From the NCBI RefSeq assembly GCF_016861605.1, contig NZ_BOLM01000012.1, positions 1 to 64,000 on the forward strand: DNA of 64,000 nt, given 5' to 3'. Below, one piece after another: positions 19,389 to 43,580 of this stretch; the stretch's first letter is position 1, and the number at the start of each line of letters is the position of its first letter. The notes under the pieces were generated by a model. That model had not been told where the DNA came from. It did no database searches and worked only from the letters and a program-made list of their open reading frames with translations. The DNA comes from Levilactobacillus wangkuiensis. Its GTDB lineage: Bacteria > Bacillota > Bacilli > Lactobacillales > Lactobacillaceae. Both the position numbers and the translations under genes were made by a program.

Positions 19389-20189
19389 CGCCCTTCCGGG
19401 TGGGTCAAAATAGGCCGGAACGCTGTGGGGAGGACGCCCCGAGCCTGAGGGGCGGTCTCGGGACTTGCTTTGAGCCTCAAAGGTCGAGTCTCAAAGTCAC
19501 CATTTCCTGAGGTGCCCTCAGGAAATCCCGCGGCTGAGCCTATTTTGAACCACCCTGCAGGGCTGACGGTGGTGAGGGTTGGCAGCAATCGGAGTGGGAT
19601 TGCACTGACACTTAGTTTTTTCAGCATCATTAGATATTGTGGGCGGTCTCCAGTCTTGCTTTGAGCCTCGAAAGGCGGGTCTCAAAGTCACCATTTCCTG
19701 AGGTACCCTCAGGAAATCCCACGGCTGAGTCTATTTAGCCCCGCCCTGCGGCTGACGGTGGCGGAAGGTGGCGACAATCGGAGTGGGATTCGGCTAACAC
19801 TTTGTTCTTCTTTAGATGGATGTGGTGGGGAGGACGCCCCGAGCCTGAGGGCGGTCTCGGGACTTGCTTTGAGCCTCAAAGGTCGAGTCTCAAAGTCACC
19901 ATTTCCTGAGGTGCCCTCAGGAAATCCCGCGGCTGGGCCTATTTTGAACCACCCTGCAGGGCTGACGGTGGCGGAGGTTGGCGACAAGCGGAGTGGAATT
20001 CGCTGATACTTTGTTCTTTTGCCTCTTGTCAGTGGAGGTTGTGGGCTGACGATTGGAGCCAAAGGGCGGTCTCCAGTTTTGCTTTGAGCCTCAAGGGTCG
20101 AGCCTCAAAGTCACCATTTCCTGAGGTGCCCTCAGGAAATCCCGCGGCTGAGCCTATTTTGAACCACCCTGCAGGGCTGACGGTGGCGG
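19389..20189 (+). repeat. Tandem array of four R2 structured repeats
   Basis: Four head-to-tail copies: 19389-19574 (complete), about 19638-19764, 19825-19974 and 20041-20189 (5' basal strand degraded). The complete copy has basal helix GGGTGGGTCAAAATAGG / CCTATTTTGAACCACCC, hairpin A CCCGAGCCTGAGG..GGTCTCGGG, hairpin B CTTTGAG..CTCAAAG and hairpin C TTTCCTGAGG/CCTCAGGAAA. Copies also share about 40 nt of downstream sequence (GGCGACAATCGGAGTGGGAT), so the duplicated unit is about 230 nt. No gene in 19276-20389. Confidence 0.88.
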
Positions 20190-20287
20190 AGGTTGGCGAC
20201 AATCGGAGTGGGATTCGCTGATACTTAGTTCCCTTGTAATCTATTCAGCAGCGCACCAATTTTCTAGATTATAAGTTATCCTTACGA

Positions 20288-20316
20288 TGTAAGCGCTTTT
20301 ATGATACGCTTATAGT
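20288..20316 (+). promoter_or_regulatory. CcpA cre site and promoter of the alcohol dehydrogenase gene
   Basis: TGTAAGCGCTTTTA at 20288-20301 matches the cre consensus TGWAANCGNTNWCA at all but one defined position. TATAGT at 20311-20316 is the likely -10, so the cre box covers the -35 region: carbon catabolite repression is predicted. Confidence 0.65.
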
Positions 20317-20389
20317 ATCCCATTAGTTTTACATTTTGTGATACATAAGCATAGTTGTCGTTTCTCTGAGCTTAGAAAGGATGATTTGA

Positions 20390-21340
20390 ATGCAAGGCTG
20401 GCAATTTACGAAGACGCATGAACCACTACAATTGGTTGAGGTCGCTGATCCTGTTGCGGCGGCTGGGCAGGTTGTGATTGACATCAAGGCTTCCGGGTTG
20501 TGTCATACTGACGTGACTATCATTGACGATCCTGGGTGGATGGATTTGATTCAACCGCCAGTTATTTTAGGGCATGAATGTGCGGGCGTGATTGCATCCG
20601 TCGGCACGGGGGTGACTAAATTTAAACCGGGTGACCGGGTTGGGGTTTGCCCCATTGATCCGGACACCCAAGTCTCAATCGGCGGGGTCGTTGACGGGGC
20701 CTATGCCAACAAACTCGTTGTCCCCCAGACTGAGTTGATCCCATTGCCCGACAACGTGTCCTTCATTGATGGTGCCGCAGCAACTGATGCCGGCATGACC
20801 TCTCACCGAGCTATCTTTGGCGTCGGTGGTGCCAAGGTGGGGATGAAGGTTGGTATCGTCGGCATTGGAGGTATCGGGGACTTTGGTGCCCAGCTCGCGA
20901 TTGCGGCAGGTTGTGATGTCTATGCCGCTGACCCGAAGCCAGCCGCTAAAAATATGGCTGAGGCGATGGGCTGCAAGGGCATCTTCGACGATGTCAGTGA
21001 AATGAAAGATATTGCCCCAGACCTCATCGTGGACTTCGCCGGCTTCGACAGCACCACGAGCCACGCCTTATCCGTTGTCGCACCCGGTGGCAAGGTCGTC
21101 GTGGTGGGGATGGGGATTCTCCATTCAACCATCAGCACCTGGGATCTGATCATGAAACGCGCTCAGGTCGTTGGTAGCATGGGCGGTGACAGCTCAGACA
21201 TTGCGTTTTGTTATGACGCGCTGTCCAAAGGCCAGGTCAAGCCAACGCTGTCGACCATCGACTTCAGTAAAATCGATGAAGGGCTGGAAACGTTGCGTCA
21301 AGGTGGCGTGACCGGTCGACTGATTGCCACACAGGATTAG
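20390..21340 (+). CDS. Zinc-type alcohol dehydrogenase lacking the structural-zinc lobe
   Basis: 316 residues; GAAAGGATG precedes the ATG. Medium-chain dehydrogenase: catalytic zinc ligands in ASGLCHTD and GHE (GHECAGVIASVG), Rossmann motif GIGGIGDFGAQLA. Members of about 340 residues carry a lobe with four cysteines binding structural zinc right after GDRV; here GDRVGVCPIDPDTQVSIGG leads straight to VDGAYANK with a single Cys, so that lobe is missing, explaining the short length. Substrate unknown; probable NAD(P)H-dependent alcohol/aldehyde interconversion. cre site upstream, terminator downstream. Confidence 0.82.
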   Translation: MQGWQFTKTHEPLQLVEVADPVAAAGQVVIDIKASGLCHTDVTIIDDPGWMDLIQPPVILGHECAGVIASVGTGVTKFKPGDRVGVCPIDPDTQVSIGGVVDGAYANKLVVPQTELIPLPDNVSFIDGAAATDAGMTSHRAIFGVGGAKVGMKVGIVGIGGIGDFGAQLAIAAGCDVYAADPKPAAKNMAEAMGCKGIFDDVSEMKDIAPDLIVDFAGFDSTTSHALSVVAPGGKVVVVGMGILHSTISTWDLIMKRAQVVGSMGGDSSDIAFCYDALSKGQVKPTLSTIDFSKIDEGLETLRQGGVTGRLIATQD

Positions 21341-21354
21341 TTATTTTTAAATTT

Positions 21355-21393
21355 GAAATCATCATCAGCGGGTAAATGCTGGTGATGATTTTT
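21355..21393 (+). terminator. Terminator after the alcohol dehydrogenase gene
   Basis: AAATCATCATCAGC pairs with GCTGGTGATGATTT, followed by T5. Confidence 0.85.
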
Positions 21394-21544
21394 AGGCTAT
21401 CAGTACTTACTGCGGCATGTAAGCCGGGACAAATAAGTCACGTAAGTCAGTCCAAAATGAGTCACGACCGCCAACGCTTTCAGTATAAAAATCTTTGTGG
21501 AAGTTACCAGTTTACTTTACCCGAAAAAACCTCTAAAATAAGGA

Positions 21545-21757
21545 AATAGAGCTTGATAAAAGTAGGCCAACATTAGAGAAAAACCGCTCGTGCTGAAACG
21601 GTTTTACGGCCCAAATGGGTCAAGCAAGTTTCATTTAATCGATAATTAATTATCGCGGTGTCGCCGTTATTGACGAGAGTGGTGGTCCCAACGACCACAA
21701 ATTAGGTGGTACCGCGCACGAGCGTCCTATTGGCAATTGGCCAGTAGGGCGCTTTTT
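21545..21757 (+). promoter_or_regulatory. T-box riboswitch of trpS (tRNA-Trp sensing)
   Basis: Stem I spans about 21545-21640, its base formed by GAGCTTGAT and GTCAAGC; a TGG codon at 21616-21618 lies in the specifier-loop position, fitting Trp. The T-box core AGGTGGTACCGCG is at 21704-21716. The terminator (21720-21757, AGCGTCCTATTGGC / GCCAGTAGGGCGCT then T5) overlaps the antiterminator partner. Uncharged tRNA-Trp should stabilise the antiterminator and allow trpS transcription. The 21394-21544 interval before it shows nothing else clear. Confidence 0.9.
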
Positions 21758-21774
21758 CAGAAAGGAAGAACAAA

Positions 21775-22794
21775 ATGAGTAAAAAACACGTTATTTTAAC
21801 TGGAGACCGACCAACAGGTAAGCTACATATTGGGCATTACGTGGGGTCGTTGAAGAACCGAGTCGCTTTGCAAAACACCGGTGATTACGATACTTATATC
21901 ATGATTGCGGACATGCAGGCCCTGACCGACAACGCCCGGGATCCCGAAAAGATTCGCCACAGCCTGTTACAGGTCGCTTTGGACTACCTGGCCGTGGGTA
22001 TCGACCCCGCCAAGTCTACGATTCTGGTGCAATCCCAGATTCCTGCCTTGAACGAGCTGACCATGGCCTACCTGAACCTGGTTTCCGTTTCCCGGTTGAA
22101 CCGAAACCCAACCGTTAAGACTGAAATTAAGCAAAAGGCCTTTGGCGAAAGTGTGCCCGCTGGTTTCTTCATCTACCCAGTTAGCCAAGCCGCTGATATC
22201 ACGGCGTTCAAGGCCGACACGGTCCCTGTTGGGGAAGACCAAGAACCCATGCTGGAACAAACCCGCGAAATTGTGCGGAGCTTTAACAGCATTTACCAAC
22301 AAGAGATTCTGGTTGAACCTGAAGGCTACTTCCCACCTAAGGGGCAAGGCCGGATTCCTGGCTTGGATGGCAACGCCAAGATGAGTAAGTCCCTCGACAA
22401 CGCCATTTACCTGGGCGACAGCGCCGATGAGATTCAAAAGAAGATCATGTCCATGTACACGGACCCAGAACACATTCACATCGAAGATCCTGGTCATATC
22501 GAAGGCAACACCGTGTTCACCTACCTCGACATTTTTGCCGATGATCATGAACACGTTGAAGAATTAAAGGCCCAATACCAACACGGTGGCCTAGGTGACG
22601 TCAAGATCAAGCGGTACCTGAACGAGGTCTTACAAGCTAAATTACAACCAATCCGCGAACGCCGTGAAGCCTTCGCTGCCGATGAGGGCGCCGTTTACGA
22701 CATCCTTAAGCAGGGGAGCGAAAAGGCTAACCAAGTCGCCGCACAGACGTTACGTGAAGTTCGGCACGCGATTGGTATTGATTACTTCGGTTAG
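21775..22794 (+). CDS. trpS: Tryptophanyl-tRNA synthetase
   Basis: 339 residues, class I synthetase. HIGH motif in [12 protein letters not shown] near the N-terminus, KMSKS in [17 protein letters not shown] in the middle, which is the compact TrpRS pattern. It attaches tryptophan to tRNA-Trp in the cytoplasm. GAAAGGAAG precedes the ATG. Its leader is a T-box with a TGG specifier, agreeing with the assignment. Ppx follows 20 nt on. Confidence 0.95.
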
Positions 22795-22814
22795 ATTGAA
22801 ACGGGGGATGAACA

Positions 22815-23735
22815 ATGCAAAACTTAGCCATTGTTGATTTGGGCTCTAACTCGGTCCGGATGGCCGTTAACGAACTGCATGACGACGGCACGTACCGTGA
22901 AGTCAACCGCATCAAGGCTGACAGCCGTTTGTCAGAGGGGATGGGTCCCGAAAAGATCCTCCAACCGAAGGCGATGGACCGCACGATTGCGGCGCTGAAG
23001 TCGTTTCGACCGTACTATGAGCAGTTGCCCCATTTAATTGTTAGGGGAATTGCGACGGCGGCCGTACGCCAAGCCCGCAACCGCGACGAATTTTTAAAAC
23101 GCGTCGCAGCGGCCACGAACATTGAATTAGAAGTGTTGTCTGGGGACCAGGAAGCCTACTACGACTACCTGGGCGCAGTCAACCGGTTAAAAATTAAGGA
23201 TTGTCTGTTGCTGGATACTGGTGGGGCCAGCTGTGAACTGGTTCACGTCAAAGATGGCCGCGATGCCAACCTGATCAGTGTGCCGTTTGGCGCCGTCAAC
23301 CTGTCGGAACAGTTCCGGCTCGATGACCGCGTTACGGCCGTAGACTTGTTCTCCGCTCAGGTTTTCCTCCGCGAACGCCTCCAGGACATTTGGTGGCTCA
23401 ATGATGCCAAACACCTGCCACTGGTGCTCTTGGGTGGGGCCAATCGGACACTGGCCCGGATGAACCGTCAGCAGCAAAAGATTTTGCACGTCGAAAATAT
23501 TCACGGGTATCGGCTCACCACTGGTCAAGTCATGAAGACGTTTGAACGGTTACTGCGGGTACCTTTGCGGGAACGCAAGCGGATCTCTGGCCTAGAGACG
23601 GAGCGGGCTGATATTATTATCGGGGGAATGTTACCCCTGGTCACGCTGCTCCAAATGCTGGATTCCGACCGGGTCATTTTCTCTGAAAGTGGCGTCCGGG
23701 AGGGCATCATCTCCGAGTACCTGAGTCAACGTTAG
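22815..23735 (+). CDS. ppx: Ppx/GppA family phosphatase (exopolyphosphatase-like)
   Basis: 306 residues, an actin-like ASKHA fold: IVDLGSNSVRMAV (phosphate 1 motif), GIATAAVRQARN, LLLDTGGASCELVHV (phosphate 2) and LLGGANRTLARM. Only the catalytic Ppx-GppA domain is present; the C-terminal HD-like domain of the E. coli enzyme is absent, as in many Firmicutes. It hydrolyses polyphosphate ends or pppGpp; which one cannot be told from sequence. GGGGGATG is the ribosome site. Its TAG stop (23733-23735) overlaps the ribosome site of mvaA, so trpS-ppx-mvaA-HELLH gene may share a transcript. Confidence 0.85.
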   Translation: MQNLAIVDLGSNSVRMAVNELHDDGTYREVNRIKADSRLSEGMGPEKILQPKAMDRTIAALKSFRPYYEQLPHLIVRGIATAAVRQARNRDEFLKRVAAATNIELEVLSGDQEAYYDYLGAVNRLKIKDCLLLDTGGASCELVHVKDGRDANLISVPFGAVNLSEQFRLDDRVTAVDLFSAQVFLRERLQDIWWLNDAKHLPLVLLGGANRTLARMNRQQQKILHVENIHGYRLTTGQVMKTFERLLRVPLRERKRISGLETERADIIIGGMLPLVTLLQMLDSDRVIFSESGVREGIISEYLSQR

Positions 23736-23747
23736 GAGGGGACATCA

Positions 23748-25010
23748 ATCAACCAACCACCATTTTACCGGCTACCTTATGAGGCGCGCCGGGACCAAAT
23801 TGCCAGCCAAAGCCATTTGACGGTCGACCAGTTAGTTGAGCTGACCGCCCATCGACAGGCGACCGACGAGAATTTAATTGAAAATTATCTCACGACGTAC
23901 GGCCTGCCCGAGGGGGTGGCCGTAAACCTGACCGTCGATGGCCGACCGGTAACGGTGCCGATGGTGACTGAGGAACCCTCAGTCATCGCAGCAGCTAGCA
24001 ATGGTGGCCGGCTATTGGCCAGTCCAACGGGGATTGAGACCCAGGTTACCCAGCGAGAATTGATGGGGCAAATCGTTTTCAGTCACGTCATTGATCCCCG
24101 TGATTTAGTGAAATGGTTGACGGCTAACCGTAAGCGACTTCTTAACGTTGCCGATGCGGCCCACCCCAGCCTGATTACCCACGGAGGTGGCGCTAGCAGT
24201 CTACGGATTCGCCAGCTGCCGCCCGATTGGGTATTGCTAGACGTCTTCATTGATGTCGGCGAGGCCATGGGCGCCAATCTGGTCAATACCATGACGGAAG
24301 CCGTGGCAGCGGACATCAAGGCGCACCGCGACGAGGATATTCTAATGAGTATTCTCAGTAATTACGCGACGCACAGCCTGGTAACCGCGACCTGTGAAGT
24401 GCCGGTCGACCAGGTGAAAACGCTCACGATTGCCGGAGCCGCGGTGGCCCAACGCATCGTTGAGGCCAGTGACCTGGCTCAGGTCGATCCGTACCGCGCC
24501 GTGACTCACAACAAGGGCATTATGAACGGTATCGATGCCGTCGTCCTGGCGATGGGCAACGACTGGCGGGCCGTCGAGAGCGGCGTACACGCCTATGCGA
24601 GTCGCAATGGTCAGTATCAGGGACTCAGCCAGTGGTCAATCGTTGATGGCAAATTACGCGGCGAGTTGACGCTACCCCTGGCCTTGGGCTTTGTGGGCGG
24701 CGCCACGCGTGTGTTACCACTGGTGAAGGTGAACCAACAGATTGCTCACGTGACGAGTGCTCGTGAACTCATGGGGATCACCGCGGCGGTCGGACTCGCC
24801 CAGAACGTGGCGGCCTTGCGCGCACTGGTGACCGACGGCATTCAACGCGGCCACATGTCCCTGCAACGCAAGTCGTTGGCCTTATCCGTTGGGGCGACCC
24901 CCATGGAGCTGCCAGCAGTGATGCAACGCTTAGCGACCATCACTCAGCCAACTATGGCGCAGGCCCAAGCGGCCCTAACCGCCGTCCGTCAAGCAAATTT
25001 AAAGGAATAG
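23748..25010 (+). CDS. mvaA: Hydroxymethylglutaryl-CoA reductase, class II; apparent ATC start codon
   Basis: About 420 residues; makes mevalonate from HMG-CoA in isoprenoid synthesis. Catalytic features: Glu near residue 75-76 (TEEPSVIAAAS), GEAMGANLVNTM, THNKGIMNGIDAV, and His369 (RGHMSLQ). The first usable ATG/GTG/TTG in frame is TTG 23817, which has no ribosome site and would cut off the conserved N-terminus (PPFYRLPYEARRDQIASQSH, typical class II start). AGGAGGGG (23734-23741) lies 6 nt before an in-frame ATC at 23748, and a stop at 23733-23735 closes the frame just upstream. Initiation at ATC is therefore inferred. The downstream gene begins immediately after the stop. Confidence 0.88.
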   Translation: MNQPPFYRLPYEARRDQIASQSHLTVDQLVELTAHRQATDENLIENYLTTYGLPEGVAVNLTVDGRPVTVPMVTEEPSVIAAASNGGRLLASPTGIETQVTQRELMGQIVFSHVIDPRDLVKWLTANRKRLLNVADAAHPSLITHGGGASSLRIRQLPPDWVLLDVFIDVGEAMGANLVNTMTEAVAADIKAHRDEDILMSILSNYATHSLVTATCEVPVDQVKTLTIAGAAVAQRIVEASDLAQVDPYRAVTHNKGIMNGIDAVVLAMGNDWRAVESGVHAYASRNGQYQGLSQWSIVDGKLRGELTLPLALGFVGGATRVLPLVKVNQQIAHVTSARELMGITAAVGLAQNVAALRALVTDGIQRGHMSLQRKSLALSVGATPMELPAVMQRLATITQPTMAQAQAALTAVRQANLKE

Positions 25011-25991
25011 GTGAAAATAAACAGTATGCAAGCAAAAGATGTCAAATTAAATAAAGAGGTTCAAAGCCTGTTAGATCAAGTTAACGCTATCTATCCAGGT
25101 AAGGTTGAAGTCCAATTTATTGGGGAACTGCAAGCCGGTTTCGTCCGGCATGACCAGGCCCAACAGATGCAAATGGGCAAGGACATTGCCATTCAGGTGG
25201 CCGATTTGACCGCGCCAAACTACACGGCCTCACACGAACTGCTCCATTTGTTAATGATTCTGTCTGGGTTCCCACAGGTCTTCTTCTCCTTGACGACCGG
25301 CCAACCCCAACTCGACGAACAACTGATGATCATGGGCACCGAGCTGTATGATATCGTCAGCCACGAAGTCGTGGTCAGTGAACAACGCAAGCACCATTTA
25401 ATTGACGACAATATCAAGGATTTATACTTGAAAGGGGTCACGGCAACCATTAAGCCAGAACCCAACCCAGTCGACGATGAAATGACGTTGCGGACGCTGA
25501 CCTTGCTGGATGCCTTAGTCTTCTTCGGCACCGACGACCAAGACCTGATGGCCCAATTCACCAAGGATTATCCCATCAGTTTCGCTGCCGCTCAGAAGCT
25601 GTACCAAGTTATCACGGAAAAGCCAGTCGACTCACCATTTAGCCTGCGCCGGAACGTGGTCAAGTTGTTCAAGGCCTTCGACGCCCAACTGGAAGCTTGG
25701 AGCTTACCAGCTCTGCACAACACTGAGTTCACAACACTGACCAGCGTCTTGTCTAAGCGGCAATTAAGCCTACAGGTCAAGCAGATCTTTGAGCTGTACC
25801 ACTCAGACATGCACGAGAAGACGACACAACGCCGCGGCTACGTCGGCTTCAATCACGCCGACGAACAAAACGCGTTCGTGCTCCCAGCACCAGCGCCCAA
25901 GGACGATACGCCAGAGTACTTCACGAAAATTTACAGCATGACGGTCGAAGAGCTCTTCAAGCAACTCAAGATGCCATACATCTTGCGGTAG
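25011..25991 (+). CDS. Putative HELLH metalloprotease-like protein (IpaB/EvcA-named family)
   Basis: 326 residues; GTG start at 25011 abuts the mvaA stop, with AAAGGA upstream; ATG 25026 is an alternative. Lactobacillar homologues carry the name IpaB/EvcA family, which implies no known function. H75-E-L-L-H79 in ASHELLHLLM is a zincin-type HExxH motif, followed by a mostly helical protein; a third zinc ligand may lie in TELYDIVSHEVVVSEQRKHH about 35-50 residues later (E or H). No signal peptide, so it is cytoplasmic. Coupling to mvaA is conserved in my recollection of lactobacillar gene order but is not evidence of function. Confidence 0.65.
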   Translation: MKINSMQAKDVKLNKEVQSLLDQVNAIYPGKVEVQFIGELQAGFVRHDQAQQMQMGKDIAIQVADLTAPNYTASHELLHLLMILSGFPQVFFSLTTGQPQLDEQLMIMGTELYDIVSHEVVVSEQRKHHLIDDNIKDLYLKGVTATIKPEPNPVDDEMTLRTLTLLDALVFFGTDDQDLMAQFTKDYPISFAAAQKLYQVITEKPVDSPFSLRRNVVKLFKAFDAQLEAWSLPALHNTEFTTLTSVLSKRQLSLQVKQIFELYHSDMHEKTTQRRGYVGFNHADEQNAFVLPAPAPKDDTPEYFTKIYSMTVEELFKQLKMPYILR

Positions 25992-26010
25992 CTAGACGTG
26001 CGCCTGGGTT

Positions 26011-26194
26011 CGCCTTACCGGGCGGTTAAAATAGGCTGGAACGCGGTGGGCAGGACGTCTCAAGCCGAAAAGCGGTCTTGAGACTCGCTTTGAGCCGCAA
26101 AAGTCGCGTCTCAAAGTCGCCATTTTCTAAGCAAATCACTTAGAAAATCCCACGGCTGAGCCTATTTTAACCGCCCTCACGGCTGACACTGGCG
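26011..26194 (+). repeat. R2 structured intergenic repeat
   Basis: Basal helix GGGCGGTTAAAATAGG / CCTATTTTAACCGCCC; hairpin A TCTCAAGCC..GGTCTTGAGA; hairpin B CTTTGAGCC..GTCTCAAAG; hairpin C TTTTCTAAG/CTTAGAAAA; then CCCACGGCTGAG. Each stem differs from the 19.4-kb copy by paired changes. Confidence 0.88.
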
Positions 26195-26471
26195 CAGCTT
26201 GCAACAGTAAATAAATGGTATTTGTGAGATGTGGATTGGTTAGTTGTAAGGTGGCAACTGTGTTCATTCAGCTAGATATATTTTGAACTTTATGAAAAGA
26301 ATCCGCGACAATCAGCTGAAACCGGCATACAATGAGAGCGAAATCTGTTTTCTATTCGATTGTTTTCGTGCGAACGTTAGTCATTGTGGCATGAGAAATG
26401 TGTATTGAAATAAATACAGGTATAGGTGGGCCGGCGAACTGAAGTAACGTTAACTTAGATGGACCATGTTA

Positions 26472-26656
26472 GTGACCAGAGGTGGGCCAAGGTGATCAGC
26501 TGTGTCGATGGTCTTGGCTGGAGTTCTTTTCCAGCCTAGAGCATGGGACGACCTGAGAGACTGGTGATTTTCCAGGCTTTCAGGCGAGGTGGAGGACCGC
26601 TCCTCAGGCCGGAGCTGTGCCCCACAGCAGGGCACCTTGAGCCCATTGTTAGGAAC
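26472..26656 (+). repeat. R1 structured intergenic repeat
   Basis: Starts GTGACCAGAGG; hairpin 1 TTGGCTGGAG/TTCCAGCCTA; hairpin 2 CCTGAGAGACTGG/CCAGGCTTTCAGG; right end CCCCACAGCAGGG. The terminal helix is degenerate at its outer end. The interval 26195-26471 upstream is AT-rich with no ORF. Confidence 0.83.
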
Positions 26657-26748
26657 AATATAGGATAAGGTGAATCTTAGTTAGTTTTACGGCTGAATAA
26701 GTGGACCTTTGCAATTTAATGCTAGCTTAAAATGATAGGGCTAGTTTC

Positions 26749-26932
26749 AGCGACCAGAGGCGGGTCAAGTTGACCAGCTGTGTCGATGGCCTTAGCTGGG
26801 GTTCTTTCCCAGCTTAGCCCATGGGACGCCCTTTGAGACTTGGCTTTTAGGCTTTCAGGCGAGGTGGAGGACCGCTCCTCAGGCCGGAACCGTGCCCCAC
26901 AGCAGGGCTGCTTGAACCCGCCGCCGGGAGCG
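26749..26932 (+). repeat. R1 structured intergenic repeat, second copy in the same gap
   Basis: Hairpin 1 TTAGCTGGGG/CCCAGCTTAG; hairpin 2 around TTTGAGACTTGG; ends CCGCCGGGAGCG. Same orientation as the copy at 26472, 93 nt away. Confidence 0.83.
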
Positions 26933-26984
26933 AAAGTCGCACATGTTTTAAGATATGGATTTGATTTAAGAAGGGATGATGGGG

Positions 26985-27689
26985 ATGGAAGCGAGCTTGC
27001 AAGCAACCTTTGATGACGCCAAATACATCGTGTTTCTAACCGGCGCAGGCGTCTCGACGCCGTCGGGGATTCCAGATTACCGGTCGAAAAACGGCCTGTA
27101 CACGGGACACCGCAACGCCGAGTATTACCTGAGTCACGCCTGCCTGGTACAGGAGCCAGAGGTCTTTTATGATTACGTGAAGCAAAACCTGTACTATCCA
27201 GACGCCAAACCCAACGTCATTCATGAAAAACAGGCGGCCTTGACCCAGCAGGACCGGGCGATGGTGATTACGCAAAATATTGATAACCTGTATAACGTGG
27301 CCCACACCAAGCACTTGGTGGAATTTCACGGCAATATGTACCAGGTTCACTGTCAACTCTGCGGGGCGAAGGTCAGCTGGCAAGATTACTTGCGGGACCC
27401 GCACCACGATGTTGACGGTGGCTGGTTGCGACCAGACGTTGTGCTTTACGACGAGGGCCTCAACGAGCTGAATATTCAGCGGTCGGTTGCCGCGATGGGC
27501 CAGGCCGATTTGGTCGTGATTGTCGGGACCTCCATGCGGGTTTACCCGTTTGCCGGGCTCCTAGATTATCGTAATCAACAGGCCAAGGTAGTCGTGGTCA
27601 ACCAGGAACGCTTGAATTTAGGCTTTGACTACACGATGGTTCAGGCGGACGCTACTGAGTTCTTCAACGAACTCCAAGTTCGGGGGTAA
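26985..27689 (+). CDS. Sir2-family NAD-dependent protein deacylase
   Basis: About 234 residues; three in-frame ATGs (26976, 26979, 26985) follow AAGAAGGG, of which 26985 has the best spacing. Sirtuin motifs: GAGVSTPSGIPDYRS (NAD binding), TQNIDNL, catalytic His in VEFHGNM, VGTSMRVYP. It removes acyl groups from lysines using NAD. The zinc module keeps only the first Cys pair (CQLC); where the second pair is expected the sequence runs DPHHDVDGGWLRPDVV, so zinc binding is doubtful. Followed 4 nt later by a small membrane gene. Confidence 0.85.
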   Translation: MEASLQATFDDAKYIVFLTGAGVSTPSGIPDYRSKNGLYTGHRNAEYYLSHACLVQEPEVFYDYVKQNLYYPDAKPNVIHEKQAALTQQDRAMVITQNIDNLYNVAHTKHLVEFHGNMYQVHCQLCGAKVSWQDYLRDPHHDVDGGWLRPDVVLYDEGLNELNIQRSVAAMGQADLVVIVGTSMRVYPFAGLLDYRNQQAKVVVVNQERLNLGFDYTMVQADATEFFNELQVRG

Positions 27690-27693
27690 GCCG

Positions 27694-28020
27694 ATGACGC
27701 ATCAAGAAGTAATCCATCAACTACACGGGCTGGTGAGGCGTTTGCGTTGGCTAAACGTGCTCCAGCTGATTCCAGATACGTTGGTCATCTACGGGATTCT
27801 CCAGCTGGCCTTTAGCGGGCAAATCGTCACGCTGTTTGAAGCGAGCTTTTCTCGCAACCAGGCGGTCCTCGTGACGGTGCTCTTTGCGCTGATTGACCTC
27901 TGTGTGACTGGGATTCGTTACAATGACCGGGTTGCGGGGAAGCGGCTGATCAGCCAACTGAGCGGACGCCTGACTACCCCTGAAGCCGAATTGATTAAGA
28001 AGTTTGAACGTTTTAAGTAA
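27694..28020 (+). CDS. Hypothetical two-helix membrane protein
   Basis: 108 residues from ATG 27694, 4 nt after the sirtuin stop, inside an operon. Two hydrophobic segments (about 21-43 and 58-77; the second contains FALIDLCVTGI), a basic loop and a charged C-terminus (PEAELIKKFERFK). No family recognised. Translation is probably coupled to the sirtuin gene (GGGGGTAAG upstream). Confidence 0.6.
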   Translation: MTHQEVIHQLHGLVRRLRWLNVLQLIPDTLVIYGILQLAFSGQIVTLFEASFSRNQAVLVTVLFALIDLCVTGIRYNDRVAGKRLISQLSGRLTTPEAELIKKFERFK

Positions 28021-28033
28021 GGAGTGGTTTGGC

Positions 28034-28879
28034 ATGATTACCATTGGGTTGACCACCTGGACGGAGCATCCGGCATTAATTGGCGGCGATACGCGACCCG
28101 TCACGTTACCGGAGTATGCGGGGCATTTTCCAGTCGTTGAGCTGGATACGCCGTTCTACGGGATTCCCCGCCAGAGCACGATTGAGAAGTGGCAAGCGGC
28201 CGTGCCGGATGGGTTTCAATACATTTTGAAGGCCAATCAGGTCATGACCCGGCACGACCGGGATGAAACGTTGCCTGAAACCGAGCGAAATCTAGCCTTT
28301 GATCAGTTTCGCACGGCGATTCAGCCACTGGTTGCACACCAGAAATTGTTGACGGTGCTCTTCCAGTTTCCGCCGTTCTTTAACCGGACGACGGCAAACA
28401 TCGAATACTTGCGGCAGGTCCGCGTGCTGATGGGCAATTTGCCCGTCGCCGTGGAGTTCCGCAGCCCCAGTTGGTTTGCGACGCCGGAGATGAGCGCAGA
28501 TGTGTTGGCCTACCTGAAGTCGTTGCGGTTCACCAACGTGACGACCGACGAGCCGCACAATCTAAACGACGGGATTCCCCTGGATGAGACCGTGACGACA
28601 CCTGAGCTGGCGATGGTTCGGCTGCACGGCCGTAACGCCGAGGGCTGGTTTAATCAGGGCCAGAATTGGCGGAAGACCCGCACCCTCTATCACTATTCGG
28701 AAGAGGAGCTGCAGGACTTTGCGGCCATGGTCAAGCGCTTAGACCAGCAGGCCAAAGACGTCTGTGTGATTTTTAACAACAACGCGGGTCGTGACGCCGC
28801 TCCCAATGCTCAGCGACTCCAAGAAATCTTGGACCTGCACTGGCAAAATTTGGCGCCACAACAATTGGATCTATTTTAA
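28034..28879 (+). CDS. DUF72 (YecE-family) protein
   Basis: 281 residues from ATG 28034 with AAGGAGTGG upstream. TIM-barrel-like DUF72 family: MITIGLTTWTEHP at the N-terminus, VVELDTPFYGIPRQSTIEKW, LFQFPPFF, VAVEFRSPSWF, VRLHGRN and VIFNNNAG near the C-terminus. The family is widespread and uncharacterised; a nuclease or sugar-metabolism role has been suggested from fold only. Last gene of the sirtuin run; terminator follows. Confidence 0.85.
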   Translation: MITIGLTTWTEHPALIGGDTRPVTLPEYAGHFPVVELDTPFYGIPRQSTIEKWQAAVPDGFQYILKANQVMTRHDRDETLPETERNLAFDQFRTAIQPLVAHQKLLTVLFQFPPFFNRTTANIEYLRQVRVLMGNLPVAVEFRSPSWFATPEMSADVLAYLKSLRFTNVTTDEPHNLNDGIPLDETVTTPELAMVRLHGRNAEGWFNQGQNWRKTRTLYHYSEEELQDFAAMVKRLDQQAKDVCVIFNNNAGRDAAPNAQRLQEILDLHWQNLAPQQLDLF

Positions 28880-28898
28880 CTGAACGAGTGAAACGAGC

Positions 28899-28940
28899 GA
28901 GTACGCAACTGAGTGAATCGGTTGGGTACTTTTGTCTTTT
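28899..28940 (+). terminator. Putative terminator after the DUF72 gene
   Basis: AGTACGCAACTGA pairs imperfectly with TCGGTTGGGTACT, followed by a T-rich tract. Confidence 0.6.
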
Positions 28941-28997
28941 TCATTGGGTAGTTTCACCACAAAATCCTGGGTTAGCGCTATGGCTAAACCGGGGTTT

Positions 28998-29007
28998 ATG
29001 CTATACT
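28998..29007 (+). promoter_or_regulatory. Extended -10 promoter of metG
   Basis: TGCTATACT (TGn plus TATACT at 29002-29007), 73 nt before the metG start. The GGTTAGC/GGCTAAACC inverted repeat just upstream could be an operator or a terminator remnant. No T-box is present. Confidence 0.45.
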
Positions 29008-29052
29008 TGATTAGAATTTATCATGAATTTTAACCCGATAATAACGGAATAA

Positions 29053-31116
<2,064 letters not shown>

Positions 31117-31138
31117 GGTTACGTTTTAGTTGCTTGCC

Positions 31139-31324
31139 GCGCCTCCGGGCCGGTGAAAATGGGCCGTGACGCTGTGGGCGCGCGTCTGAAGCCTGAGAAG
31201 CGGTCTTCAGACTTACTTTGAGCCGGAGTTCACGTCTCAAAGATAGCAGTTGCCTAAGCGGTAAACCGCTAAGGCAACTCCCACGGCTGAGCTCATTTTC
31301 ACCAGCCCTGCGGCTGACATGGTG
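31139..31324 (+). repeat. R2 structured intergenic repeat
   Basis: Basal helix GGCCGGTGAAAATGGGC / GCTCATTTTCACCAGCC; hairpin A GTCTGAAGCC..GGTCTTCAGAC; hairpin B CTTTGAGCC..GTCTCAAAG; hairpin C GTTGCCTAAGCG/CGCTAAGGCAAC; then CCCACGGCTGAG. Confidence 0.88.
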
Positions 31325-31420
31325 TTAACCCGTATCGCGCTGACGTAGATGTTGGCAATGGTAGGATGGCATTGTCAACACACCACATGTAACTTGTGGG
31401 GCGCTAGACGGTATGGATTA

Positions 31421-31560
31421 GTTCCAGTCTGTGAAGTGGGCTTCCACCTCAACTTTGAGCCTGAGAAGCGGTCACAAAGGTTGTCCCATGGGCTAAGCTG
31501 AGAAAATCACTCAGCTAAGGCCATCGACACAGCTGGTCACTTTGGCCCGCCTCTGGTCAC
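31421..31560 (-). repeat. R1 repeat lacking its right end
   Basis: Reverse-oriented R1: CCACCTCAACTTTGAG, GCCTGAGAAGCGGTC, GTCCCATG, hairpin TAAGCTGAG/CTCAGCTAAG, CCATCGACACAGCTGG, CGCCTCTGGTCAC. The outer GTTCCCGGCGGCGG part is missing. Confidence 0.78.
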
Positions 31561-31572
31561 TAACATTGACTG

Positions 31573-31690
31573 CGTGGCTCATTTTCACCAGCCCTGCGGC
31601 TGACATGGTGTTAACCCGTAGATCACTGACGTCGTGTTGACAATGGTACATGATACCGTCAGCATGCCACATGTAGTTTGTGGGTTGGTA
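31573..31690 (+). repeat. Direct duplication of the R2 3' half and its downstream flank
   Basis: GCTCATTTTCACCAGCC and GGCTGACATGGTGTTAACCCGTA recur here after first appearing at 31291-31334, and the following sequence down to a CCACATGTARYTTGTGGG motif is also repeated in diverged form (31381-31400 and about 31664-31683). The R1 fragment lies between the two copies. 31691-31825 shows nothing further except the leader of tatD. Confidence 0.7.
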
Positions 31691-31831
31691 GCAGTAATAC
31701 CGGTAGCCAGTAGGGGTAACACTTCACACAAACCAAATAAAACCATAACCAAAACGTGGGCGGCGGATCGATGAGACGCCGGCTGCGTTTTGTTCGTTTA
31801 ATCAATCAAATTAGGGTAAAGGAGAATGACG

Positions 31832-32611
31832 ATGAAAATCTTTGATTCGCATACACATTTGAACAGCGAAGAGTTCATCAATGATGTGCCTGGCTTTTTG
31901 AAACGGGCTGCCGATTTGGGTGTCGTCAAGATGACCAATATCGGATCGAACACACAGCTGAACGCCGATGCCATCAAGTTGGCCCACCAGTATCCGCAGC
32001 TGTACGCCGCCGTTGGTTGGCACCCCGAAGATTCCAAGAACTACGATGCCGCAGCTGAGAAATTGTTGGAAGAACAGCTTGCCGATGACCGGGTCGTTGC
32101 GCTGGGTGAAATTGGGTTGGACTATCACTGGGACACGTCGCCACGGGATGTGCAGCGGAAGGTCTTTGCCCGGCAGATTGCCATTGCCAAGGAAGTGGGC
32201 AAGCCAATCGCCGTGCACAACCGGGATGCCTTTGAAGACACCTACCAAATCATCAAGGACGCCGACATCAGTGAAATTGGGGGCGTCATGCATAGTTTTA
32301 ATGGTGACCCCGAATGGCTGAAGAAGTTCCTTGACTTGGGGATGCACATCTCGTATTCTGGCGTTGCTAGCTTCAAGAACGCCCACGAGGTCCACGACGC
32401 CGTTCGCGCGACGCCACTGGACGTCATGATGGTCGAGACCGACGCGCCTTACCTGACGCCGGAACCACACCGCGGCGAGCAGAACGAGCCTGGTTTCACC
32501 CGCTACACGGTGGAAGCCATTGCTAAGGAACGCGAGACCACGCCGGAAGAAATTGCGGCCGCCACGTTTAAGAACGCAGAGGAGTTTTACAAAATTAATG
32601 AAAAAGATTAA
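31832..32611 (+). CDS. tatD: TatD-family metal-dependent deoxyribonuclease
   Basis: 259 residues; ATG 31832 fits AAAGGAG (31818-31824) better than ATG 31826. Amidohydrolase-like TIM barrel: metal ligands in FDSHTHL at the N-terminus, GEIGLDYHW, PIAVHNRDA, GGVMHSFNG and MVETDAPYLTP. Family members are Mg-dependent 3'-5' DNases involved in DNA repair or turnover. The stop overlaps the rnmV start by 14 nt; the tatD-rnmV-rsmA order is conserved in Firmicutes. Confidence 0.92.
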   Translation: MKIFDSHTHLNSEEFINDVPGFLKRAADLGVVKMTNIGSNTQLNADAIKLAHQYPQLYAAVGWHPEDSKNYDAAAEKLLEEQLADDRVVALGEIGLDYHWDTSPRDVQRKVFARQIAIAKEVGKPIAVHNRDAFEDTYQIIKDADISEIGGVMHSFNGDPEWLKKFLDLGMHISYSGVASFKNAHEVHDAVRATPLDVMMVETDAPYLTPEPHRGEQNEPGFTRYTVEAIAKERETTPEEIAAATFKNAEEFYKINEKD

Positions 32612-36142: not shown

Positions 36143-36190
36143 GGAAATATTGAGCCAACAGAAAGTTTAAATCGTTAGGAGCGAAGAGCC

Positions 36191-36769: not shown

Positions 36770-36775
36770 AATGAC

Positions 36776-36816: not shown

Positions 36817-36824
36817 ATGAAGCG

Positions 36825-37278: not shown

Positions 37279-37290
37279 TTGAAAATTAAC

Positions 37291-39579: not shown

Positions 39580-39604
39580 GGATAAACACCTCTTAGATTT
39601 TTTA

Positions 39605-39670
39605 GAAAATTGAATTTCTTAATCGACACCAACAGTGTACGTGGATTTGATTTAAATGTCAACGCTTTCA
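39605..39670 (-). promoter_or_regulatory. xylQ promoter with cre box and repressor operator
   Basis: On the minus strand: -35 TTGACA (39657-39662), 17 nt, -10 TACACT (39634-39639). TGAAAGCGTTGACA (39657-39670) is a perfect cre and covers the -35. The operator GAAAATTGAATTTC (39605-39618, partial palindrome) lies downstream of the start site. Confidence 0.82.
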
Positions 39671-39913
39671 TGAGAAGAAATTATCCTGGATGGGGGTGGT
39701 GGGTCGCCTATAGAGGTAAGAGAAAATAGGCGTCAAGTCGACAACCGGTTGCACCGACCAATTACACCTAAGCAGCTATAACGTACTGAATTGACTCGAT
39801 AAAAGTCCTAGACCAATTGCCTAAAAATTTAAGAACTGACCGTTTAACTAGATTCCATCGGGCTTTTACCCACCACATTCAACCCCAAAGTCGTTCAACC
39901 CCTAAAATTGTTG

Positions 39914-39963
39914 TTGACAACTGAAAACGGTTACAGTAAACTGTGATTTGAAAATTGAATTTC
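39914..39963 (+). promoter_or_regulatory. xylP promoter with cre box and the same operator
   Basis: -35 TTGACA (39914-39919), 17 nt, -10 TAAACT (39937-39942). TGAAAACGGTTACA (39922-39935) is a perfect cre between the two boxes. GAAAATTGAATTTC (39950-39963) is identical to the xylQ-side operator. The stretch 39671-39913 between the two promoters holds no gene. Confidence 0.83.
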
Positions 39964-40025
39964 CTTGAACGTCGACGGTTCAAACGCAAGTCAATTGATT
40001 CAACCAAATAATGAGGTGTGTACTT

Positions 40026-41426
40026 ATGAGTGAAAATGCTCCTAAAGTCGCGGTTGCCGAGAAGAACATGGTGCCGTGGAACGAACGAATTGCCTATAGC
40101 TTTAGTGACTTTGCCTGCAACCTGTCCTTCCAAATGGTCGGGACGTACTTAATGATTTTCTACACGGATACGTTTGGTATCAGTGCCGCTGCAGTGGGGA
40201 CGTTGTTCCTGGTCGCCCGGATCGTGGATGCCTTTGATGGGCCATTCTGGGGAATCATGATCGACCACACGCATACCAAGTGGGGGAAGAGCCGACCGTA
40301 CTGGTTATGGTTCTCGATACCGTTTGCGGTGTTCTGTGTGTTAGTCTTCACCACGCCAAATATGAGCCTGACCGGTAAATTGGTCTGGGCCTACGTGACT
40401 TACATTGGGGTCGATGTGCTGTACTCAGCCGTTAACATTCCGATTACTTCGATTTTGCCATCATTAACCAGCAACCCCCAAGAACGGGTCACGTTATCCA
40501 CGATTCGGCAATTCATGGGGACGGCCGGTGCCACCATTATTACCGGGATCACGTTGACCATGGTTGCCTTCTTCGGCCACGGCTCAACTACGAGTGCCCG
40601 CGGCTGGTTCATCTGGGCCTTAATTGTCGGGATCATTGTGGTCATCATCTTTGGGTTCGTCTTCAAGAACACGACGGAACGGGTCCAAACCAAGAGTTCT
40701 CGGCAATCTATTCCAATTAAGGAATCTCTGAAAGCCTTGAAGCGCAACTGGCCTTGGGCCATCATCATCTTCATCAACTTCATCTACTGGATGGGGATGC
40801 AGACGCGGTCTCAAGTGACGGTTTACTTCTTTAAGTACAACATGCACGATGCCAAATTAGCTTCATTTGTACTGAGTTTACAAATGGTTGCACTGGTCGC
40901 CGTGGTCTTAACGCCATGGACGTCCAAGCTGATCGGTAAGCGAAACACGATGCTCGGTGGGATGATTCTTGCCGTGGTCGGTCAATTACTCTTGAGCCTG
41001 GGTGCCACGCATCTGAGTGTCCCAATGATTATCTTCGCCACCATCGTCGGTTACCTGGGGACCGGGTACGTTTCTGGTCTGATTGCCGTGATGTTAGCCG
41101 ATGCTGTGGACTACGGGGAATGGAAGAACGGCGTCCGCGCCGAAGGAATTGTTACCTCTTTCTCTAGTTTTAGTGCTAAATTAGGTATGGGGATTGGTGG
41201 GGTCATCACCGGTTGGATTTTGACCGGAAGTGGCTACGTTGCCAACCATACGCAATCGGCTGCGGCCTTACACGGAATCGAATTGAACTACATTTGGGTT
41301 CCCCTGTTAGGCTTCGCACTTTCCGGAATTGCTTTGATGTTCTACCACGTTGACGGCATTGAAAAACAAATGCAAAGTGAGTTAGCAGAAAAGCACGCCC
41401 GTGAAAACGCAGAGGACGGCGAATAA
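40026..41426 (+). CDS. xylP: Glycoside-pentoside-hexuronide (GPH) cation symporter, isoprimeverose/xyloside transporter
   Basis: 466 residues; ATG 40026 is preferred because GAGG (40013-40016) is 9 nt upstream. Twelve transmembrane helices, N-terminal RIAYSFSDFACNLSFQMVGTYLMIFYTD and DAFDGPFWGIMIDHT(H)TKWGKSRPYW are the GPH family (2-A-2) hallmarks. There is no PTS EIIA-like domain as in LacS. Beside a GH31 alpha-xylosidase, the substrate is probably isoprimeverose or a related xyloside. The C-terminus is polar (ELAEKHARENAEDGE). Followed by the ROK regulator after 22 nt. Confidence 0.88.
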   Translation: MSENAPKVAVAEKNMVPWNERIAYSFSDFACNLSFQMVGTYLMIFYTDTFGISAAAVGTLFLVARIVDAFDGPFWGIMIDHTHTKWGKSRPYWLWFSIPFAVFCVLVFTTPNMSLTGKLVWAYVTYIGVDVLYSAVNIPITSILPSLTSNPQERVTLSTIRQFMGTAGATIITGITLTMVAFFGHGSTTSARGWFIWALIVGIIVVIIFGFVFKNTTERVQTKSSRQSIPIKESLKALKRNWPWAIIIFINFIYWMGMQTRSQVTVYFFKYNMHDAKLASFVLSLQMVALVAVVLTPWTSKLIGKRNTMLGGMILAVVGQLLLSLGATHLSVPMIIFATIVGYLGTGYVSGLIAVMLADAVDYGEWKNGVRAEGIVTSFSSFSAKLGMGIGGVITGWILTGSGYVANHTQSAAALHGIELNYIWVPLLGFALSGIALMFYHVDGIEKQMQSELAEKHARENAEDGE

Positions 41427-41448
41427 CTAGATAAAGTGAGTGAACGGC

Positions 41449-42606
41449 ATGATTATTAACAAGGACGTGATGCGTGATCACAACGAACGGTCTGTCCTGC
41501 AGACCATCGTGAATCACGGACCGATTTCGCGGTCAGAAATTTCTAAATTGTTGGGGCTAAACAAGGTCTCGGTATCGGATATCGTGGGTACGTTTAGCGA
41601 CCGCAAATTAGTTCTGAGTCAGGGTGAAGCCACCTCAAATCAGGGGAGTGGCCGCCGCGCCGAGCTAGTGGCCTTTAACGCCACTTACGGCTACATCATC
41701 AACTTCAGTATTTCCGGTGAAAAGCTAGAAATGTTGGTGACCCAGCTGGATGGGCGGGCCCTGGAATACAACGAAAGTCCCATTAGTCACCTTGCCGTGA
41801 AGGAAATTGTCGCTAAGATGGTCGACATGATCGGTCAATTGCCGAGCTTCAAGGCGGAGAACGGCCTCCAAGCCATCTCCATCGCCATCTTCGGGGTCGT
41901 TTATGAAAATGAAATCGTGACGTCGCCCTTCGTGGACTTCGCCGATTTCGACCTGGTCGGCTACTTTAAGCGCCGCTACCACGTGCCCATCATCTTGGAA
42001 AACGAAGCCAATCTGGCCGCCGTTTTTGAACAGGACTTCAGTAAGCAGGAACTGCAAAGCATCGTTGCCATCAGTATTCATGAGGGTATCGGGGCCGGCA
42101 TCCTGGTCAACAAGCAGCTCTACCGCGGAAATTACGGGCGCGCTGGTGAAGTCGGCCACATCATGATTCAGGATACGGGGCGGAAACGCCAGCGCTTAGC
42201 TCAGCTGCCAAGCTTTGATGAGGAGTGGTCGGAAACGGCTTTGCTCAAGAAGGCGGCCCAGATCAAGGGCGTGGCGCAGGTTACCTTGGCGGAGTTGGTC
42301 ACGGCGGCCAATCAAAACGACCCGGAAATCTCCGGGCTACTTGAGGAGCTGTGTTACCACCTGGCCATCGTGACCAGCGATTTGATTGTCGCCTACGATC
42401 CACAGATGATTTTCTTCAACTCACCGTTGGTTGAACAATTGCCAGAGATTTTAAAGAACATTCAGATGAAATTGAGCTTTATGCCATTGGTCCCGCCACT
42501 GGTGATGTCCAAGGATGTGAAGTATGCCACCTTACTGGGCGGCGCTTCCTTGGCGATTCATGAGGTGTTGGCGATGCCCGGCACGCGGCTGATTTTTCAC
42601 CATTAG
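41449..42606 (+). CDS. xylR: ROK-family transcriptional repressor (XylR-like)
   Basis: 385 residues from ATG 41449. N-terminal winged helix (ERSVLQTIVNHGPISRSEISKLLGLNKVSVSDIVG, about 11-45), then a ROK domain (ISIAIFGVVYENEIVTSP, ENEANLAAVFE, GIGAGILVN, GRAGEVGHIMI). The zinc-site cysteines of sugar-kinase ROK proteins (CxCGxxGC) are replaced by GRKRQRLAQLPSF, as in some xylose-responsive repressors. Likely to bind the duplicated GAAAATTGAATTTC operator and to be relieved by xylose or a xyloside. Terminator directly after. Confidence 0.85.
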   Translation: MIINKDVMRDHNERSVLQTIVNHGPISRSEISKLLGLNKVSVSDIVGTFSDRKLVLSQGEATSNQGSGRRAELVAFNATYGYIINFSISGEKLEMLVTQLDGRALEYNESPISHLAVKEIVAKMVDMIGQLPSFKAENGLQAISIAIFGVVYENEIVTSPFVDFADFDLVGYFKRRYHVPIILENEANLAAVFEQDFSKQELQSIVAISIHEGIGAGILVNKQLYRGNYGRAGEVGHIMIQDTGRKRQRLAQLPSFDEEWSETALLKKAAQIKGVAQVTLAELVTAANQNDPEISGLLEELCYHLAIVTSDLIVAYDPQMIFFNSPLVEQLPEILKNIQMKLSFMPLVPPLVMSKDVKYATLLGGASLAIHEVLAMPGTRLIFHH

Positions 42607-42613
42607 CACCAGC

Positions 42614-42660
42614 AAAGTGGTCCGCAAGCTCATTCCTTGGGTTTGCTGGGCCACTTTTCT
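42614..42660 (+). terminator. Terminator of the xylP-xylR operon
   Basis: AAAGTGGTCC pairs with GGGCCACTTT around a partly paired loop, followed by TCTTTTT. Confidence 0.75.
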
Positions 42661-42698
42661 TTTTGGACTGGTTTGGGGATGGGGTTATGGGTGATTTG

Positions 42699-42892
42699 CC
42701 GCCTACGGCCTCTGGGGACTCCGCCTTCTGTGGGGCACGCTTGCGGCCTGAGAAGCGGTCCTCCAGCTCGGTTTGAAGCCGGAAGCCCGCCGTCTCCAAA
42801 CACGTCCCATGCTGTAAGCCCGGGAAAGTTCGCCCGGACTAACACCATCGACACAGAAGACTACGTACCCAGCTACCTCCGGCTCTTGATGG
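42699..42892 (-). repeat. R1b structured repeat (variant ends)
   Basis: Reverse orientation: CTTCTGTGGGG, GCCTGAGAAGCGGTC, GTCCCATG, hairpin GTAAGCCCGGG/CCCGGACTAAC, CCATCGACACAGAAG. The helix CTTCTGTG/CACAGAAG replaces CAGCTGTG/CACAGCTG of other copies: a compensatory change. Its outer part (GGCCTCTGGGGACTCCGCC) matches the 50.7-kb copy. Confidence 0.8.
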
Positions 42893-43088
42893 TGGCCCGA
42901 CCAGTCTGGTGGTTGGGGGCCAACCAGTTGGGGTGGGTTCTGGATGTGCCGTTTTGGCTGGTGGTTGCGTCTTGAATGGTTTAAATAATTGTGAACCGGT
43001 ACATCAGATTAGTTAATTAATGTGTTGCTGTGATTGAGTGGAAAATGAGACCTTCGGAAGACAAGGTGAAAGTCAGGTGTCCATGTGA

Positions 43089-43275
43089 GTGACCAGAGGC
43101 GGGCCAAAATGTCCAGCTGTGTCGGTGGTCTTAACTGAGTGGGTTTCTCAGTTTAGAGCACGGGACGACCTTGGAAACTCGCGGTTTTTAGCGAGGTTTC
43201 AAGTCGAGGTTCCAGACCGCTTTTCAGGCTGGGACCGGCCCCATAGCAGGGCGTTTTGAGCCCGCCGCCGGGAAC
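43089..43275 (+). repeat. R1 structured intergenic repeat
   Basis: Starts GTGACCAGAGG; hairpin 1 TTAACTGAG/CTCAGTTTAG; hairpin 2 CTTGGAAACTCGC/GCGAGGTTTCAAG; ends CCGCCGGGAACG. Confidence 0.85.
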
Positions 43276-43387
43276 GGCTGATTACGCTTAGTTTCACCAC
43301 ATTTGCGTAAGTATTTGCAAGCCGGATGGGTGCTGACCAAAGATAGGCGTGAAAATAATTTCCGCCAGCCGTTTTAACCTATAAGCA

Positions 43388-43580
43388 CCACCGTAGCCGT
43401 GAGGGCGGGAAAAATGAGCCCAGCCGTGGGATTTCACTCACGGCAGGGACTGGCGTGAGTGAAATGGTGCCTTTGAAACTCGGTTCTCAGAGGTTCAAAG
43501 CAAGCGCGAAGACCGCTCTTTGGCTTCGGGCGCCCTGCCCACCGCGAACCGGTCTCATTTTTCCCGCCCGGTAAGGCGGC
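43388..43580 (-). repeat. R2 structured intergenic repeat
   Basis: Basal helix GGGCGGGAAAAATGAG / CTCATTTTTCCCGCCC; hairpin C ATTTCACTCACG/CGTGAGTGAAAT; hairpin B CTTTGAAACT/AGGTTCAAAG; hairpin A CGAAGACCGC..GGCTTCG. 42893-43088 and 43276-43387 between the repeats hold no ORF with a ribosome site. Confidence 0.88.

Follow-up and report, generated by a model that had tools for sequence, protein, structure and literature searches.

The stretch of DNA analysed here, referred to below as the window, comprises 64,000 nt of the Levilactobacillus wangkuiensis assembly GCF_016861605.1 (contig NZ_BOLM01000012.1, positions 1 to 64,000, forward strand) and was studied together with the rest of the host genome, searched as 3.14 Mb in 56 contigs. 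Between its genes lie copies of a repeat, R2, which an initial annotation had described as a second repeat family with a basal helix and three covarying hairpins; another repeat there is called R1. R2 is a real multi-branch palindrome with a cloverleaf-like fold and one cargo of a larger family with common ends, and many of its insertions have an inverted copy of the adjoining gene edge beside them. Taken together, the analysis suggests a repeat that spreads or grows as it folds back on itself and copies adjoining DNA. The features on which the argument turns are the following.

13633..13897, + strand: R1 cargo within R2-type ends; genomes G020 and G026 have R2 at the same site.
19336..19366, + strand: 5' flank of R2 copy 1, mirrored 3' of the element (flank alignment).
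19389..19562, + strand: R2 copy 1, complete, with basal helix, junction helix P2 and hairpins A, B and C (covariance model, 165.8 bits); its core is 19399-19554, + strand.
19580..19611, - strand: inverted copy of 19336-19366, 3' of R2 copy 1 (flank alignment).
19641..20230, + strand: tandem array of three R2 units, each lacking the 5' basal arm (68.2, 108.5 and 95.1 bits).
26011..26192, + strand: R2 copy whose core starts 28 nt past the stop codon of the upstream open reading frame (ORF) 25011-25991.
29080..31116, + strand: gene for a 678-amino-acid protein; its 3' end is the mirrored flank.
31139..31320, + strand: R2 copy preceded by the stop codon of that gene and followed by a terminator-like hairpin.
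31326..31378, - strand: inverted, decayed copy of 31072-31128, after the 31139 R2 copy (flank alignment).
31430..31620, + strand: R1 cargo, then an R2-type 3' end.
43348..43366, + strand: stretch of 19 nt that matches 43623-43641 in inverted form, across the 43388 element from it.
43388..43580, - strand: R2 copy in reverse orientation, upstream of ORF 43636-45111; most of it is deleted in both G020 and G026.

The four copies at first reported for position 19389 resolve into one complete copy and three tandem units that lack the 5' arm of the basal helix; these units start at about 19641, 19824 and 20057, and after each of them, judged by eye, comes a copy of the same inverted flank. At the 26011 site, G026 holds a different R2 allele, in which the basal helix and hairpin C differ in paired fashion. 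The 678-amino-acid protein is 99% identical to one from Levilactobacillus lanxiensis and is presumably methionyl-tRNA synthetase. The segment 31072-31128, mirrored after the 31139 copy, is the 3' end of this gene plus the first bases beyond it; L. lanxiensis (L089) shows the same mirrored gene end, and a second inverted match to it comes, by eye, after the R1-bearing unit at 31430..31620. For the reverse copy at 43388, the matched segment 43623-43641 is the start region of the adjoining ORF.

The R2 consensus has five helices, namely the basal helix, the junction helix P2 (GTGGG/CCCAC and variants) and hairpins A, B and C, and the four basal-helix pairs and four hairpin-C pairs quoted in the initial annotation are all present where it placed them. 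When pieces of four cores (149-150 nt, slightly less than the full cores) were folded as DNA, the z-scores were -5.57, -6.41, -4.54 and -4.33, with no shuffle equally stable, and in the piece from 31148 the basal helix was absent from the minimum-energy fold. Covariation was measured in an unfitted MAFFT alignment of 49 copies from the host's own genome, five truncated or odd copies of 54 having been dropped. Pairing was found in 95.0% of cells, against 79.3% in shuffles and 31-55% in slid structures; changes on both sides occurred in 37 of 53 pairs (24.7 in shuffles, at most 22 in slid structures); and the covariation score was 0.435 (0.142 and at most 0.103, respectively). All five covariation measures were extreme against shuffles, none of 500 being as high, and against slid structures. 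The conserved multi-branch fold proposed at the outset is strongly supported by this covariation and by the folding z-scores, and its stems are kept in most copies: Watson-Crick pairs fill 97% of cells in the 140 best of 150 matches aligned to the model, a figure that leaves out two internal-loop column pairs and comes from an alignment fitted to the model. The palindrome is, however, longer than had been described, often continuing into the host flanks.

The genome-wide copy count called for by the initial annotation proved high. A blastn search with 19389-19800 yields 51 matches in the host genome, and a covariance model made from the 49 copies, with a core of 157 model positions, yields at least 150, all with E below 1e-23. 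Two close relatives also hold at least 150 model matches each.

R2 has imperfect GGGTTAAAC / GTTTAACCC-type terminal inverted repeats, strong at the 3' end and weak at the 5' end; the 3' motif occurs 180 times with at most 3 mismatches, as against one occurrence of a reversed-pattern control. R1 is found inside R2-type ends at 13633-13897 and at other loci, while some units are near-empty between their ends, and the end-to-end length is 65-262 nt in the 17 units that have both ends within 300 nt. The larger family thus takes in R1, R2 and near-empty versions with common ends, and the family as initially drawn, though real as a branched palindrome, is not closed. Its members also change in place. 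At the site orthologous to 13633, R1 in the window is matched by R2 in both G020 and G026, and among 63 orthologous placements, defined by flank identity of at least 82% over 100 nt, the cores are at least 92% identical in 37, 86-91% in 6 and below 85% in 20. Both flanks match in 13 of these 20, several of which stand in tandem arrays, so that it is uncertain which units correspond. The interiors are thus, at times, exchanged in place, most simply by conversion between copies. Comparison with G020 and G026 gave two candidates for a clean empty site in the window, at the 43388 copy and at the R1 of 53961, but both proved to be internal deletions. When 53961-54146 is set against L057:12400-12720, the R1 copy of G026 is seen to lack its interior and keep both ends, so decay by internal deletion also occurs at such sites. 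A degenerate piece at 42724-42884 matches both R2 (D13) and R1 (I13, I18).

Beyond the core, the 5' flank, a gene edge, often recurs on the 3' side as a decayed reverse complement. In an anchored test, the reverse complement of each 5' flank was compared with its own 3' flank, outward from the core to a limit of 95 nt; the mean score was 11.84, against 4.59 for mismatched pairs, and 60 of 139 own copies scored above all 40 mismatched controls (3.4 expected), while 94 reached p<0.1 (13.9 expected). The arms of the 60 best copies reach 29-93 nt from the core, and there are examples of arms 50-60 nt long. When the 24 nt next to the core were disregarded, 24 of the 139 still exceeded all controls (3.4 expected); a mirror control without complementation was null (3 of 139). 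In G020, 35 of 74 copies were positive (1.8 expected), many of them orthologs of the own copies and hence not independent, as were 9 of 17 units that have the same ends, 11 of them with R1 inside (1.1 expected). In another genus, two of three loci of G129 (L076 and L086) have inverted flanks above their controls. The signal is also seen without anchoring, at 28-90 nt, with little beyond 60 nt. Direct target duplications of 1-10 nt, by contrast, showed no excess in the 52 clear-ended copies of the 124 examined.

Three loci could be compared across species at the same gene end, 22 of 65 loci being anchorable (9 of 30, 8 of 30 and 5 of 5). At the metG-like locus, 5 of 7 Levilactobacillus loci were used; L094 and L095 were left out as having no R2 match, although L095 carries, by eye, a diverged relative farther down. 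All seven filled sites have the reverse complement of the species' own gene end after the element, with scores of 15.3-22.3 above control maxima of 9.3-14.2; they represent three insertion events common to close relatives. None of 15 sites without the element at that place exceeds its control maximum for an inverted gene edge, and 5 of these 15 have other repeat pieces farther downstream. For the 31139 site, R2 was not found at the corresponding place in L. angrenensis, L. andaensis, L. fujinensis or L. brevis. At these three loci, then, the inverted gene edge accompanies the element.

We propose that R2 is one cargo version of a group of small, non-coding mobile palindromes, similar to miniature inverted-repeat transposable elements (MITEs), which act as folded DNA and copy their flank by folding back, and we lean, if only modestly, toward this explanation. 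We infer its joining, priming and copying steps as follows. The 5' end of a folded hairpin element would be joined to a gene edge; the 3' end, base-paired with the element's own 5' arm, would then serve as a primer, from which a polymerase would extend the strand by copying back some tens of bases from the adjoining flank; and the extended end would finally be sealed to the downstream DNA. The product would be flank, element and reverse complement of flank, replacing the usual direct target duplication, and extension of the 3' end along the flank is the simplest account of the arrangement observed. Selection on the active hairpin, together with conversion between copies, would keep the stems paired. 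A more specific and more ambitious version would have the element move as single-stranded DNA, its 5' end joined to the gene edge and its folded 3' end priming the copying of the flank, so as to leave inverted target duplications across many genera of the Lactobacillaceae as a new mode of DNA mobility in bacteria; this we put forward tentatively, as a possibility that we would not yet rely upon.

Several observations weigh against the foldback proposal. No partner enzyme was found: the host genome has no match to PF01797 (Y1 transposase), and a RAYT/IS200-type transposase, considered as the partner, is likewise missing from it. Matches to PF01797 occur in 23 of 35 genomes of the genus, including G031, which itself has no R2 model match. 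In the unanchored test, at 28-90 nt and thus beyond the family ends, the excess is smaller, with p<0.05 in 28 of 139 copies (7 expected), and a direct-repeat control shows a lesser excess as well (17 of 139, 7 expected), which we attribute to the tandem units. An inverted flank is not seen at p<0.1 in 45 of the 139 copies, and among the 60 best are 6 whose arm stops no farther than 36 nt from the core, which is mostly still within the family ends. Only 4 of 20 loci from other genomes score above control, 3 of them beyond 40 nt. The element-free species are more diverged than the filled ones, and the cross-species comparison caught no recent insertion event. Finally, fast templated correction of stems is not seen at short divergence, and we reject it as the sole cause of covariation, the stem changes between orthologs being 37 single ones (8 to G-U, 19 to A-C, 10 other) against 5 double Watson-Crick ones, with 50 pair cells that were non-Watson-Crick in both partners set aside.

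The rival that survives best holds that insertion was of an ordinary kind and that the inverted flank was added later by intrastrand template switching at the hairpin, with no special transposition chemistry. A folded nascent strand acting as primer for such switching at hairpins has been proposed (PMC8794818), and the tandem units and internal deletions show that R2 sites are unstable. Yet at each of the three loci the element came with the inverted copy, as fits a step coupled to insertion, and the direct duplication that marks ordinary insertion was not found in the 52 clear-ended copies, so that we consider this rival unlikely, though still a serious one. We favour copying coupled to insertion, with moderate confidence, because the mirror was present at every one of the three loci and no other target mark was seen.

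It could also be argued that R2 is a structured RNA, whether an element of the 3' untranslated region, an attenuator or a terminator, that is kept by selection on its transcript. RNA selected on a given strand should favour G-U over A-C pairs, and the types of pair in R2 stems were therefore counted in an alignment, fitted to the model, of the best 150 of 241 matches, rows 141-150 being excluded from the counts. Across 140 copies and 53 model pairs there are 7015 Watson-Crick, 193 G-U, 104 A-C, 73 other and 35 gapped cells. Of the G-U cells, 139 fall in a single G-T column pair that hardly varies and that we read as an internal loop, and another 13 in its neighbouring column pair; a K-turn had been considered for this loop and was dropped by eye, as its letters vary among copies. 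Without these two column pairs, 41 G-U cells (about 0.6%) stand against 95 A-C cells (about 1.3%), which is not as expected for RNA selected on that strand. In the tRNAs of the same genome (ARAGORN stems, 43 distinct tRNAs), 53 of 949 pairs are G-U (5.6%), a control informative for G-U only, as ARAGORN stems come without any mismatches. An excess of A-C over G-U would equal a G-U excess on the other strand, but even there the G-U level is only about one quarter of that in tRNA, and on this strand about one tenth. Orientation gives the same answer: among 134 copies with both neighbours called, the upstream gene lies on the same strand in 68 and on the opposite strand in 66, and no single transcript orientation is therefore kept.

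Two further features speak for the RNA reading. Many copies lie just past stop codons: where the upstream gene is on the same strand, the core starts 13-49 nt past its stop codon in 50 of 68 copies. Where the upstream gene is divergent, 47 of 69 copies stand 41-143 nt from its called start codon; on the 3' side the distance to genes is broad, with no comparable limit. This closeness to stop codons on the 5' side, like the scarcity of G-U pairs described above, also counts in favour of the foldback proposal. None of 140 copies was scored as intragenic, a point on which the gene caller is biased, its calls being crude longest ORFs with those under 400 codons that overlap an element by more than 60 nt skipped. 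In addition, in 27 ortholog pairs of at least 93% identity, those behind the stem changes counted above, paired sites changed by about 1.7% and unpaired sites by 5.5%; the stems are therefore constrained where they are located, and this argues for some function or correction, though not for a fast templated one. Strong covariation would likewise be expected of a structured RNA, but template switching in DNA replication can also produce it (PMC8794818). Against the RNA reading it also counts that cargo can differ at orthologous sites; the reading leaves the inverted flanks unexplained, and we hold it to be improbable. The functional RNA implied by the initial suggestion of SHAPE probing and RNA-seq is in this respect unsupported, G-U pairs being scarce and the orientation of copies to genes even, and the almost purely Watson-Crick covariation, with copies in either orientation, points to DNA and not to a cis-regulatory RNA. 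As to replication, 83 of the 140 copies run along the leading strand (inferred from contig GC skew and tallied by hand), an excess too weak for use.

That the elements entered the loops of pre-existing hairpins, such as intrinsic terminators, so that the inverted flanks are older than the element, would suit the terminator-like run of T after the inverted arm at L205, but it is very improbable, as the mirrored arm includes the gene's coding end at three loci and all 15 element-free sites lack an inverted copy, which contradicts it at the three loci tested.

If R2 is a mobile palindrome that copies its flank, it should be compared with the small repeats already described in bacteria. Like MITEs, it is short, non-coding and intergenic, with terminal inverted repeats and a strong fold (PMC10969869), and the family is too short for a transposase gene. 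It differs in having an inverted flank copy instead of a direct target duplication, and in its branched fold and exchangeable cargo; moreover, MITEs are said to be typically AT-rich (PMC10969869), whereas R2 model matches have 48-68% G+C. No parent insertion sequence with the same ends was seen in 20 end-bearing loci, drawn from the 180 end motifs. The BOX, RUP and SPRITE repeats of Streptococcus pneumoniae are also structured, intergenic and present in many copies (PMC3049150), and R2 is similar to them in size; BOX is modular, and the R2 family likewise combines common ends with variable inner modules. Their authors read these repeats as parasitic, with about half of the insertions common to all strains (PMC3049150). 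Inverted flank duplication is not among the features given in the portion of that description used here, the comparison being one of descriptions and not of sequences. REP and REPIN sequences with their RAYT genes share the high copy number and the palindromic, extragenic character of R2, but REPs are 20-40 bp long (PMC3733652), and we do not class R2 as a REPIN because no RAYT-type gene was found in the host genome. Intrastrand template-switch mutations are similar in that a folded nascent strand primes nearby copying and makes or repairs stems (PMC8794818). They are treated there, in the sections concerned, for RNA genes, namely mammalian microRNA loci and rRNA, while R2 is a dispersed repeat family that has host gene edges copied beside it.

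Among bacterial mobile elements an inverted target duplication, if true, would be an uncommon footprint, and the mechanism of insertion would become testable in an ordinary lactic acid bacterium. The case also carries a warning for covariance-based RNA discovery: where dispersed repeats covary strongly, DNA hairpins may lie behind the signal, and not a functional RNA. Three related species each have at least 150 copies, with many orthologous sites among them, and R2 would offer a natural record of hairpin copying beside genes.

The known range of R2 depends on the search used. By blastn, matches occur in 22 of 34 relatives of the same genus and in none of 23 other genomes. At E<=1e-4 the covariance model matches 106 of 397 genomes of the same family, in 11 of 40 genera; 24 of the 106 belong to the host's genus, host included. 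Distant members retain the core motifs in an otherwise different sequence. In an order-wide sample of 295 genomes, 12 have matches at E<=0.001, one of which (G035, with weak scores) is from another family, and across 299 genomes of the phylum the host alone matches; the larger scans used stricter filters, and weak matches may be missed in them. A search of the whole window against Rfam 15 at gathering score matched only 5S rRNA and one tRNA, with no match to R2, and at E<=1 the interval 19300-32000 gave no R2 or R1 family and a T-box at 21545 as its sole match. Neither the R2 family nor such an inverted target duplication turned up in the titles and abstract openings obtained by searching open-licence papers; in the text available of a stem-loop survey of 40 genomes, L. 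johnsonii is the only lactobacillus named (PMC2267715). G198, from another genus, has very long, nearly perfect three-hairpin versions (L065, L077 and L088), parts of whose flanks look common to several copies.

Some other features of the window may be mentioned. At 53421-53674 and 57760-58000 there is a third repeat family (D10/D11), which to the eye bears no relation to R1 or R2. The T-box leader match covers 21545-21732, upstream of an ORF at 21775, and is below the gathering score (69.8 against 93 bits, E 9e-14). At 36146-36153, both G020 and G026 have about 1.1 kb that the window lacks. An ORF of 1257 amino acids at 4889-8662 is dominated by repeats with periods of 27 nt and 18 nt (6104-6795 and from 6745), and its length apparently differs among the window, G020 and G026.

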